In this document: in pieces, positions 16,194-19,049 of the stretch
Layout of the letters: each line of letters begins with the position of its first letter
How positions within the stretch are numbered: position 1 is the first letter of the stretch
Assembly (NCBI GenBank): GCA_013204105.1
Contig: JABMOM010000028.1
Location: forward strand, 1-64,000
DNA from: Flavobacteriales bacterium
GTDB taxonomy: Bacteria; Bacteroidota; Bacteroidia; Flavobacteriales_G; Salibacteraceae
Length of the DNA stretch: 64,000 bases
Reading direction: 5' to 3'
Position numbers and translations under genes: made by a program
The notes under the pieces: model-generated
Told to the model about the DNA's origin: nothing
Databases searched by the model: none
Seen by the model: only the letters and a program-made list of their open reading frames with translations

Positions 16194-16272
16194 TGGGCAA
16201 TGATAAGAAGCTTTCCTGAAGGAACGAGCACCTCTCTACTTCTAGAAGCTGCACTATAAAGCAACACTGAGA

Positions 16273-16881
16273 TCAAAGCGTTGAAATTAAACCGAGGACA
16301 AGAATTGCAGCAATCGCCCCAGCAATTGAGCCCACTATTTTGAAGACACCGGCCATTGGAAAATAGGCTTCTTCATAGAGGCTTGGATCACGGGCGATTC
16401 TAAAGGGTTCTTCTGTCGTAAGCTCTTCGATCTCCTCCGAGGCCTCGACTTCTACCGTCACTTGGTCCCCTGGCTCCTCTTTTGGTAAATCGAAAGACTG
16501 TTGGCCTTCGTCTCGTCCCGCGAATCCGTTCACTTCAAGTGTAGGCTCTACCTTGTCAACAACAATGGAATCGAGCGAAGGCTGTTCAATCACCTCAAGA
16601 GTTTCTATTGAGGCAGAGCCTGTAGGCCTTTTGCTTACGACGATCATTTGCCCTTTTTTGTCAAACTTGATCATGGAGCTATCGGTCTCAATGAACTCGA
16701 TTTCCCCCTTCTCAAGGTCGTGTAAACTCATGCGCCGCTCATACGTGATGTGTTGATCGTGCTCACTGAAGAGCTTGGCGTCATTGATGACTTTTCCGGA
16801 TACTAGTCGTATCCTCTCTTGCGCTGAGCAAGAGAGGATAGACATGATCGTAAACCAAACGAAAAAAGTTATGCGTATCAT
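16273..16881 (-). CDS. unrecognised membrane protein, paralogue A of the CsgG-like cassette
   Basis: The 202-residue protein has a signal peptide-like start (lipobox-like ILSC, then SAQ), a beta-rich domain of about 60 residues (RIRLVSGKVINDAKLFS, ITYERRMSLHDLEKGEIEFIETDSS), an acidic linker rich in Glu, Val and Pro (about 85-150), and a C-terminal hydrophobic helix (VFKIVGSIAGAIAAILVLGLI). The beta domain is closely similar to that of the protein encoded about 1.5 kb upstream, so the two are paralogues. It follows the CsgG-like barrel gene by 18 bases and is probably its operon partner. Function unknown; a small envelope-anchored sensor or scaffold is possible. Confidence 0.6.
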   Translation of the reverse strand: MIRITFFVWFTIMSILSCSAQERIRLVSGKVINDAKLFSEHDQHITYERRMSLHDLEKGEIEFIETDSSMIKFDKKGQMIVVSKRPTGSASIETLEVIEQPSLDSIVVDKVEPTLEVNGFAGRDEGQQSFDLPKEEPGDQVTVEVEASEEIEELTTEEPFRIARDPSLYEEAYFPMAGVFKIVGSIAGAIAAILVLGLISTL

Positions 16882-16899
16882 GGTTGAGGGGGTATTGGA

Positions 16900-18009
16900 T
16901 TATCGTTGACGACGAATGTTAAAACCAAAGGACGCTCCAATAACTCCCCCCTTATTGCCTGGGGAGTAGAAGATATTGATCGGAATATTCAAATGGCCAC
17001 TCTTGATGGTCTTACCCGCCGCTAGGGTAAAGGCATAGTCGAGCTTGAGATCACCATCTTTGTCTAAGTTTTCATGCAGCTCGGACTTATACTCATCTTT
17101 TGGACCAGCGTCATACGCCTCTTGGCCCGTGGTCCATTCATCGTTCTCATTGTAAAATCCTTTCGCCGTTTTTACTACGCGAAAGGTTGGCCCGAAGGCG
17201 AATTCAATCCCTGATCGGCTATGGCGAAATCCATTCATAAGCGTCAAGCTTGGAACGAACATGCCTTGATCCATTCCACCGATAAGGGGAATGACTTCAA
17301 CCAACGCTTGCAAATTACCCGCACTCAAATACTGCCACTCGAATTGGTAGCCGAACTGACTCATGATAGGAAGCGCTTCGTAGCCACCTTGCGATCTAGG
17401 ATCTTGTAATCGCCTGCCCCGTTCGCCATAGATAAAGGTCGCACCCATTCGCGGACCACTCAAGTTCAACTTTTCAACGACTTGATCCGTAAGGACGGTC
17501 TCTTTGCGTACTAAACCATTCACCAGCATAGCATCCGACTCGACGCCAAGAAGGTTGTTGACGGAAATTTCAATCATCCCCTCTATTTCCGAACCAATGT
17601 TGTAGTATTCATTGACATCAGAGGCAATGATCTGCTCTTGTTGAACGTCCACAATCACAAGATTGATCACGATACGCTCACCAAAACGCTCTGCAGACCC
17701 TGATAAAATCTGATCAGCTCCCAGTTCCTTACCAAGCGACACCATGCATTTGATACTGTAGCAATTCTCATAGCGCTCGATATCATCGGAAAATTGATCC
17801 AGAACGTCATGCTCTCTGTAAACTGAATAACGATCATCGCGCTGTACTTTCAACCTTGCAATTTTCCCAAGCAGCTCGGGGGTCTGAATAAGTTCAGTAG
17901 ATTCAATGTTGAGTACGGCCATTTTGATCTTGCCGTTCTCAGATTGTGCCATTAGCACTGAAAGTCCAGTGCTTAAAACGAACGTCAGTAGAACTAAATA
18001 CTTTTTCAT
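16900..18009 (-). CDS. exported CsgG/LpoB-like protein with C-terminal beta barrel
   Basis: The 369-residue product has a signal peptide (MKKYLVLLTFVLSTGLSVLMAQ). Residues about 28-155 resemble the CsgG/FlgT/LpoB alpha-beta fold: IKMAVLNIEST, a conserved Cys pair (ENCYSIKCMVSLGKELGADQILSGSAERFG) and LVIVDVQQEQIIASD. The remainder (from about 185) is beta-rich, with strands and turns as in an outer-membrane barrel, ending NIRRQR. The N-terminal fold in relatives assembles oligomeric envelope complexes or activates synthases. It is flanked by two paralogous small membrane proteins. Exact function not assigned. Confidence 0.65.
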   Translation of the reverse strand: MKKYLVLLTFVLSTGLSVLMAQSENGKIKMAVLNIESTELIQTPELLGKIARLKVQRDDRYSVYREHDVLDQFSDDIERYENCYSIKCMVSLGKELGADQILSGSAERFGERIVINLVIVDVQQEQIIASDVNEYYNIGSEIEGMIEISVNNLLGVESDAMLVNGLVRKETVLTDQVVEKLNLSGPRMGATFIYGERGRRLQDPRSQGGYEALPIMSQFGYQFEWQYLSAGNLQALVEVIPLIGGMDQGMFVPSLTLMNGFRHSRSGIEFAFGPTFRVVKTAKGFYNENDEWTTGQEAYDAGPKDEYKSELHENLDKDGDLKLDYAFTLAAGKTIKSGHLNIPINIFYSPGNKGGVIGASFGFNIRRQR

Positions 18010-18338
18010 TGTATTTCGATTTGGTTTGATTTAATTACAACACAAACATCTTGCGTTTATTGAATATTTCAACTTCATTTTTTGTTACTTAATCTTCAAT
18101 ATTTGCATTTATTGCATAAATGCGTAGATTAAATTGCCCTCCTTTCGAAATAATTTGGATAATACACTCATTTCACACCTCCTGCTCTAGAACTCACTCA
18201 AAATATTGGAATAAAAAATCCCTCAGCCTTTTCGACTGAGGGATGCTATTGTCTTAATGACTGAAGTACGACTAGCTCTTAGCGAGCCATTGAAAACCCT
18301 AGTTGTGCATTGCCACTGAGATTAGTGAGCGAGGCAAA
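18010..18338. other. AT-rich intergenic region with inverted repeat
   Basis: This 329-base gap holds no convincing gene. It contains the upstream region of the CsgG-like gene, a perfect inverted repeat (GCATTTA, five bases, TAAATGC at 18105-18123) that could be an operator, and a minus-strand terminator at its right-hand side. I could not place a clear TAnnTTTG promoter. Confidence 0.6.
18213..18244 (-). terminator. terminator of paralogue B gene
   Basis: Read on the minus strand, ATCCCTCAG pairs with CTGAGGGAT and is followed by a run of T residues (AAAAAA on the plus strand). It separates the upstream small membrane protein gene from the CsgG-like gene. Confidence 0.8.
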
Positions 18339-18806
18339 CTACATTGGAGAATACAAGATGAGTACAACAAGAAGAGCCGCGCCTACAGCGACATAGAATA
18401 TGACTATTCCTTTGATAGCACCTATAACTCCAGAAAATAATTTATTCAAGACGCTTGCATTCGGCATCTCGAGACCATCATCCAAAGCAATTGAATCACC
18501 CAAAGGCTCAGTTGCTACAGACACGTCTTCCACAGCTGTAGAATCATCGGCTTGCTTGTATTCAACGATCATTTCACCTTCTTGGCTAAATCGGATCAAA
18601 GATGTATCGGTCTCGACGACATCAATTTTCTCTTTCTTGAGCTCGTGCAAGGTCATGCGCCGCTGGTAGATGATGGAATGATCCTTCACGCTGTGCAGTT
18701 TGGCGTCTTGAATGACCTTACCAGACAAGAGGCGGATTCTCTCTTGTGCTTCGCAAGAGAAAACAGACAGGATGGAAAGCAAAATGAAAAATCCTAAGCG
18801 TAGCAT
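18339..18806 (-). CDS. unrecognised membrane protein, paralogue B of the CsgG-like cassette
   Basis: The 155-residue protein starts at the internal Met giving a good signal peptide (MLRLGFFILLSILSVFSCEAQ). The following domain (RIRLLSGKVIQDAKLHS, IIYQRRMTLHELKKEKIDVVETDTS) matches paralogue A nearly residue for residue. An acidic spacer of about 45 residues and a C-terminal hydrophobic helix (IKGIVIFYVAVGAALLVVLIL) follow; the spacer is shorter than in A. A terminator lies after it, so it is transcribed separately from the CsgG-like gene. The pair looks like a local duplication. Function unknown. Confidence 0.6.
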   Translation of the reverse strand: MLRLGFFILLSILSVFSCEAQERIRLLSGKVIQDAKLHSVKDHSIIYQRRMTLHELKKEKIDVVETDTSLIRFSQEGEMIVEYKQADDSTAVEDVSVATEPLGDSIALDDGLEMPNASVLNKLFSGVIGAIKGIVIFYVAVGAALLVVLILYSPM

Positions 18807-18998
18807 AGTAGATAGAGCATTAATGATGATTAATAGACAATGGTATAACCACAAGATGTCCCTAACTCACCTCCATGAACTATCACTGATTATCCGAAAA
18901 TAGACTACCGGAATCGATTTGCGAGATACATCACTACATGTTCAACCTTATAATTTAAAAGAGGTATGATCACCAATATAGCCTCAAGGCAAAAAAAA

Positions 18999-19025
18999 AT
19001 CCCCCAACCTTGACGGTTGAGGGAT
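18999..19025 (-). terminator. terminator of the nqr operon
   Basis: On the minus strand, ATCCCTCAACC pairs with GGTTGGGGGAT and runs into nine T residues (A residues on the plus strand). It lies 25 bases after the nqrF stop and closes the nqrABCDEF message. Confidence 0.85.
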
Positions 19026-19049
19026 CTATATTCTTTTACTAAAATCGAC

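Follow-up and report, generated by a model that had tools for sequence, protein, structure and literature searches.

The window analysed here is a stretch of 64,000 nucleotides from a Flavobacteriales bacterium of the Salibacteraceae (GenBank assembly GCA_013204105.1, contig JABMOM010000028.1, positions 1 to 64,000), and our subject is a cassette of three genes, named here A, B and C, that lies in it between nqrF and apbE and is predicted to encode envelope proteins. The three open reading frames (ORFs) run on the minus strand in the order C-B-A, at the coordinates given in the original prediction, and all three products score below the model cut-offs of Pfam and NCBIfam. The features of the cassette are as follows.

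16273 to 16881, minus strand: protein A, 202 amino acids (aa), with a signal segment, a putative LSm/SH3-like domain (residues 22-83), an acidic disordered linker and a C-terminal helix (176-201).
16900 to 18009, minus strand: protein B, 369 aa, with a signal segment, a CsgG/LpoB/TolB-N-like domain (28-166) containing a Cys pair (83/88), and a predicted 8-stranded outer-membrane barrel (185-362).
18339 to 18806, minus strand: protein C, 155 aa, a paralogue of A with a shorter linker and a hydrophobic C-terminus.
16236 to 18986, no strand assigned: the interval of 2,751 bp that holds C, B and A and that by blastn has no counterpart in the sister genome G009, where 176 bp take its place.

The AlphaFold2 model of B, built on 61 sequences, has a mean predicted local distance difference test score (pLDDT) of 91 and a predicted template modelling score (pTM) of 0.59, and consists of an alpha/beta domain followed by eight barrel strands, the last of which ends at residue 362 with nothing after it. 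Structural matches to the N-terminal domain were the N-domain of TolB (Z about 13), the C-domain of LpoB (Z 11.7; 2.6 Å over 111 residues), FlgT (11.5) and PelC (11.1), while those to the barrel were OprF-N (Z 15.6; 3.6 Å, 129 residues), OmpW (14.7), NspA (14.6), OmpA (1bxw; 13.9; 4.0 Å, 148 residues) and OmpX (11.8). Whole-chain Foldseek alignments of B to TolB gave root mean square deviations above 20 Å. The original prediction had read the middle protein as a CsgG/LpoB-like domain with a Cys pair followed by a barrel, and had left the fold to structure prediction; the model returns a CsgG-like fold and a barrel at high confidence, and C83 and C88 are present, both being kept in 55 of the 61 aligned B proteins. 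The label "CsgG-like" survives as a statement of fold relationship, but the domain has the compact form of LpoB, TolB-N and PelC, and the pore hairpins of CsgG are not seen in the model.

Pfam searches of the 61 B members (E 0.01) matched DUF3280 in 10, TolB_N in eight, CsgG in five, FlgO in three and LpoB in two; window B itself was not matched by CsgG, and one homologue, at locus L027, exceeds the curated CsgG cut-off (23.1 vs 20.8 bits). These CsgG matches would fit an export pore of the kind known from curli, with A and C as gating or secretion partners. B is modelled, however, without the extra hairpins and has its own 8-stranded barrel, which is too narrow for protein export, and its N-terminus (reading ...LSVLMAQSENG) has no lipobox Cys. 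A CsgG-type pore is thus disfavoured by the model, and we consider it highly improbable. LpoB is a lipid-anchored activator of a penicillin-binding protein, and B together with A could by analogy be an LpoB-like activator of cell-wall synthesis with a partner in the inner membrane. LpoB is indeed among the best structural matches to the N-terminal domain, and Pfam LpoB recognizes two family members, but TolB scores higher and FlgT and PelC score nearly as high, so that the fold does not single out LpoB; a role in wall synthesis is improbable in our estimate.

Conservation was read from an alignment of 61 rows, made up of the window protein and 60 others, out of 64 retained by a filter (345-400 aa, no X; two domain-barrel fusions excluded). 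The 28 residues invariant in it are confined to the barrel half and include R187, Q222, E224, E238, R262, E269 and N341, of which Q222 and E224 fall within residues 219-225, part of the pattern that fetched the aligned proteins. A 12-row alignment of proteins fetched without the pattern has 30 invariant columns, among them R52, C83, C88 and G104 of the N-terminal domain. On average the two halves are conserved to a similar degree (0.58 for the N-terminal domain, 0.64 for the barrel).

A and C are 50% identical and 74% similar over 109 residues (E 6e-39), well above what chance would give, and a search of their own genome with A (3.1 Mb in 46 contigs; E 10 or better) returned the A and C loci only. 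Both linkers are rich in acidic residues (24 D/E against 5 K/R in 89 residues of A, and 9 against 1 in 36 residues of C), and both proteins end in a hydrophobic segment, the best 17-residue hydropathy within the last 40 residues being 2.5 for A and 3.1 for C. The shared domain, acidic linker and hydrophobic C-terminus that had been noted in these two proteins are thereby borne out, with the shared segments visible in the translations. In a model of A built on five sequences, residues 22-83 form a series of seven short strands (pLDDT near 90), most of the linker is of low confidence and residues 176-201 form a helix. The best structural matches to the domain were Hfq proteins (Z 5.9, 54 residues) and YgdR (3fif; Z 5.3), the best Foldseek E value was 0.049, and Pfam had no match to A or C at E 1; we tentatively call the domain LSm/SH3-like. 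The frame of C starts with the ATG at 18806, and an alternative TTG start, extending it to 18854, is possible. At its other end, this frame stays open for 19 codons past its TAG stop (18282-18338, minus strand; FASLTNLSGNAQLGFSMAR) before reaching a TAA; a longer C-terminus may once have been encoded here, or the open frame is due to chance.

The original prediction had also called for a search for the same gene order in other Flavobacteriales genomes, and would have been refuted had the genes never been found together; they do occur together. A single-sequence search found B in 10 of 59 relatives, and a profile search of 395 genomes sampled from the whole class found it in 113. The A-domain profile, built from seven sequences, matches 22 of the 395 genomes, and in 19 of these B is present as well (Fisher 1e-8; genome counts here and below are not independent of kinship). 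The profile seeds are domains adjoining B, three of them from the sampled genomes G000, G047 and G064; with these three removed, B is present in 16 of 19 genomes with A and in 94 of 373 without it (Fisher 3e-7). In all 19 genomes that hold both, from 13 families, an A gene adjoins B, so that a coincidental neighbourhood is rejected, 16 of the 19 genomes lying outside the profile seeds. The three genomes with A and no B (G079, G206 and G385) all have weak A matches (E 0.0009 to 0.005), and G363 and G400 each carry one extra A on a contig without B. When A alone was searched against the 59 relatives, the one weak match listed (G047:C31:20000, E 0.004) looked by eye like a membrane protein with no relation to A, and the A genes that adjoin B in G047 and G041 went undetected.

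The arrangement of the pair is regular as well. In the loci fetched, the 29 A genes close to B all share its strand, 27 of them lie within 450 bp, and two overlap B by 4 bases; at L146 the overlapping A lies downstream of B. An A gene lies upstream of B twice only, as window C and as one of the A genes of G212. The duplicated partner set of the original prediction therefore needs to be divided: the A-B pairing recurs, but paralogues flank B in only two of the 19 genomes (the window and G212), and elsewhere A follows B. In several relatives a long A comes after a short one of 104-140 aa (G064, G257, G098, G253 and G106, the last with two long ones; in G107 the long A is 4 kb away). The A and C domains of the window share 58% identity with one another but no more than 33% (A) or 28% (C) with the other five aligned A-domains, and the pair therefore looks like a local duplication, not like the short-plus-long pair of those relatives. 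At L155 (G363:C7:142600-155400) two B-A pairs follow one another (B-A-B-A), with every A immediately after its B.

In a tree of 104 B proteins, made by a quick method and containing long branches, all 20 A-linked proteins fall in one half (50 rows; Shimodaira-Hasegawa-like approximate likelihood ratio test 98). The A label changes four times on this tree, compared with a mean of 18.6 in shuffles, none of 500 of which was as low. G254 carries a B in both halves of the tree, of which one is accompanied by A and the other by the regulator described below. Other genes accompany B at some loci. In three genomes of one family (L220, L221 and L236, from G193, G222 and G131), B is followed by four genes on the same strand encoding proteins of 82, 457-462, 319-327 and 632 aa, and the gene ahead of it encodes a protein of about 1,462-1,467 aa; in G051 (L023) a 941-aa protein with a tail resembling, by eye, those of the type IX secretion system precedes B.

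A related domain is found fused to the barrel itself. Fusions of an LSm-like domain with a B-type barrel occur at L056 and L073 and at 11 of 20 further loci with partial B matches (for example in G270, G294, G313, G334 and G392). The fusion proteins are 245-371 aa long, and their domain, by eye of the form QDxIxLKNGxExxxKVxEITxxEIKYK, stands ahead of the B-homologous barrel. We built a profile of this related domain from 17 sequences (11 barrel fusions, five small proteins encoded just upstream of B and one other) and compared it with the A-domain profile; this single comparison scored 28.4 (probability 80, E 1.5e-5), against 13.1 for the best of 30 column shuffles. With shallow alignments the probability was 6, and it rose to 80 with deeper ones. 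The two domains also meet in one A protein of G212 (223 aa), in which an A-domain (49-118) is followed by the related domain (166-203, E 3e-5); a 525-aa protein of G106 has only weak pieces of this combination. The fusions of partner domain and barrel favour, without proving, a physical association of the two.

The barrel and the N-terminal domain of B are also found in other company. At L263-L277 there are B-type barrel proteins in which an LSm-like domain replaces the CsgG-like one, and at L263, L269 and L272 the protein is little more than the barrel, encoded at L263 beside the helix-turn-helix (HTH) regulator described next. Two 506-aa proteins (L280 1734-3254 and L282 1113-2633, from G063 and G141) match the B profile with a CsgG/TolB-N-like N-terminus and have a C-terminal half that by eye is caspase-like (YYALIIGIDQY..., YYSGHGE).

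B has a second frequent neighbour, a regulator of about 337 aa with an HTH_3/BetR-type N-terminus. Pfam (E 0.01) matched BetR in 20 and HTH_3 in 11 of 29 aligned members, and beyond the HTH region there is no Pfam match common to two or more of the 29; the member at L017 is below both curated cut-offs. The 29 were chosen from loci where they adjoin B, and the regulator model was built mostly from B-linked proteins. Surveying 101 B loci (G111, whose B has stops, is not included, and G216 and G341 each contribute one of two strong places), we found the regulator within four ORFs of B at 57, on the opposite strand at 52. The regulator occurs in 149 of the 395 genomes, namely in 92 of the 101 with a strong B (the 113 less 12 with partial or weak matches) and in 57 of the 294 others; among all B genomes it is present in 98 of 113, and with the 29 seed genomes removed it remains in 63 of 72 with a strong B. 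A and the regulator both lie within four ORFs of B at only eight loci, and we conclude that they represent two overlapping partnerships of B, not a fixed three-gene operon. The single regulator homologue of the window's own genome is on another contig (C23:5031-6053; L107 5028-6077), which by eye carries rnf-like genes; that the cassette of the window adjoins nqr is probably a coincidence in this respect.

We tentatively favour, at somewhat less than an even chance, a reading in which B and its partners form a trans-envelope tether, with B in the outer membrane meeting A and C tethered in the inner membrane. The N-terminal domain of B would lie just beneath the outer membrane, A and C would be exported, with their tail helix anchoring them in the inner membrane, and their flexible linker would let them cross the periplasm and dock on B. 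Such docking could provide a tether or pass a signal, much as OmpA-, LpoB- or TolB-type links do, without B being a member of any of these families, and in many relatives the BetR-like HTH regulator probably controls B. The tail is consistent with this arrangement among long A proteins: 10 of the 16 that reach 150 aa or more carry a hydrophobic tail, both window proteins included, compared with 59 of 294 other N-terminally hydrophobic proteins of the same loci (the count covers 31 A proteins, including those of G363 and G400 that have no B nearby and leaving out L160 of G385).

Several observations weigh against the tether. The structural matches behind the LSm/SH3-like assignment are weak, which is why it is only tentative. 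None of the 15 short A proteins (<150 aa; 15 of the 31) has a hydrophobic tail, so an inner-membrane tether is not required everywhere. The 28 invariant residues, all in the barrel half, do not point to the N-terminal domain as a docking site, although those around 219-225 belong to the fetching pattern and the 12-row alignment has invariant residues in the N-terminal domain too. The A profile may favour B-linked forms because it was seeded with domains adjacent to B, and it finds A at only 19 of the 101 B loci, or 26 if the related domain is counted, within two ORFs. The nearest relative of window B, from G008 of the same genus (46% identity), stands in a different neighbourhood with neither A nor the regulator among the adjoining ORFs, and beside window B itself there is no regulator.

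The main alternative, which we regard as possible but unlikely, is that B is a regulator-controlled outer-membrane sensor or ligand-binding barrel and that A and C are accessory periplasmic binding or folding factors without any tethering function. The same invariant residues would speak for a function of the barrel, and by strand parity they may form an interior cluster, a reading limited by the place of Q222 and E224 in the fetching pattern; the regulator is also linked to B more widely than A is (57 vs 19 of 101 loci), and the short A proteins have no tail. A sensor barrel, however, leaves the hydrophobic tail of the 10 long A proteins unexplained, and the nearly equal conservation of the two halves does not set the barrel apart.

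The origin of the cassette was considered by comparison with other genomes of the genus. apbE is present in 12 of its 13 genomes, and nqrF and apbE are direct neighbours in all 11 of these other than the window's, with no A, B or C between them. In the sister genome G009, NqrF is 98% and ApbE 88% identical to the window proteins, and the flanks align up to window position 16235 and again from 18987. The GC content of the insert is 0.439 (window 0.479), and at third codon positions it is 0.47-0.51 in A, B and C compared with 0.56-0.59 in apbE, nqrF and two further nqr genes, values that are compatible with a foreign origin without proving it. The simplest reading is that the cassette was probably gained in the lineage of the window. 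No direct or inverted repeats of at least 8 bp were found between the junctions (140 bases at one and 160 at the other), and we therefore claim no integration mechanism. The earlier view that the cassette has no link to its neighbours is upheld, and its apparent insertion between nqrF and apbE, into a neighbourhood that is intact in 11 other genomes of the genus, would explain it.

The layout of the transcripts was considered with the help of terminator-like hairpins, of which three concern the cassette.

18997 to 19027, minus strand: terminator-like hairpin with T tail, 3' of nqrF; 13 pairs, the longest among the stems listed.
18218 to 18244, minus strand: terminator-like hairpin with T tail, 3' of C and between C and B; 11 pairs.
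16262 to 16283, minus strand: weak terminator-like hairpin, 3' of A; 7 pairs, near chance.

The six terminator-like sites in the region do not exceed the number found in shuffles (4.6 +/- 2.5). The positions of the hairpins, together with a gap of only 18 bp between B and A, suggest that C is a unit of its own and that B and A form an operon.

A scattered occurrence and the likely insertion between two housekeeping genes would also fit an island for defence or competition that has nothing to do with envelope structure. PADLOC, however, gave no match for A, B or the regulator and for C only a weak one (IetS, E 0.002, 14.4 bits), which we take as chance; no B homologue was found in phage or plasmid records at E 1e-5, and the 113 of 395 genomes that carry B mostly have the same regulator too. 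A defence system is accordingly without support from PADLOC and from phage and plasmid records, and we judge it quite improbable. A broader form of the tether, namely that the cassette represents a previously undescribed mobile module of Bacteroidota that spans the envelope, in which a TolB-N/CsgG-like protein with a barrel works with tail-anchored LSm-like partners and the partner domain can be exchanged as a fusion to the barrel, is in our view doubtful. If correct, it would define a widespread outer-membrane family with a linked regulator and exported partners, whose window member is unnamed by Pfam and NCBIfam, and would show two well-known envelope folds joined in a new order. Since the gene pair is defined and a sister genome lacks the cassette, the function is directly testable.

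How does the cassette compare with known systems? We found no description of a fusion between a CsgG domain and an outer-membrane barrel in titles and the beginnings of abstracts, a coverage that is incomplete and no proof of novelty; in the passages of PMC12611786 consulted, CsgG appears only in a reference. The regulators that neighbour B in relatives share their HTH region with BetR/HTH_3 regulators. A and C may resemble Hfq/LSm proteins and YgdR-type SH3-like small barrels in predicted fold, a weak likeness that may reflect a common fold only, and add to it a signal segment, a linker and a hydrophobic tail.

The alpha/beta domain of B (28-166) shares its fold with LpoB, the TolB N-domain, PelC, FlgT and CsgG. 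In those proteins the domain comes with a lipid anchor, a beta-propeller or membrane hairpins, whereas in B it is fused to an outer-membrane barrel of its own. TolB has a beta-propeller after its N-terminal alpha/beta domain, and in B the 8-stranded barrel takes that place. CsgG, whose alpha/beta domain is related by fold to LpoB, TolB-N and PelC, has membrane hairpins within this domain that build a large shared barrel, and is made with a lipoprotein signal and an acylated Cys; the B model has no such strands in residues 28-166, and its N-terminus has no Cys. With OmpA, OprF, OmpW and OmpX, B shares the 8-stranded barrel (185-362), but the order is the reverse of that in OmpA, the periplasmic domain coming first and the barrel last, and the peptidoglycan-binding domain that lies C-terminal to the barrel in OmpA has no counterpart in B, the barrel of which ends at residue 362 of 369. 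We regard the cassette as known folds in a new order and combination, with a conserved partner.

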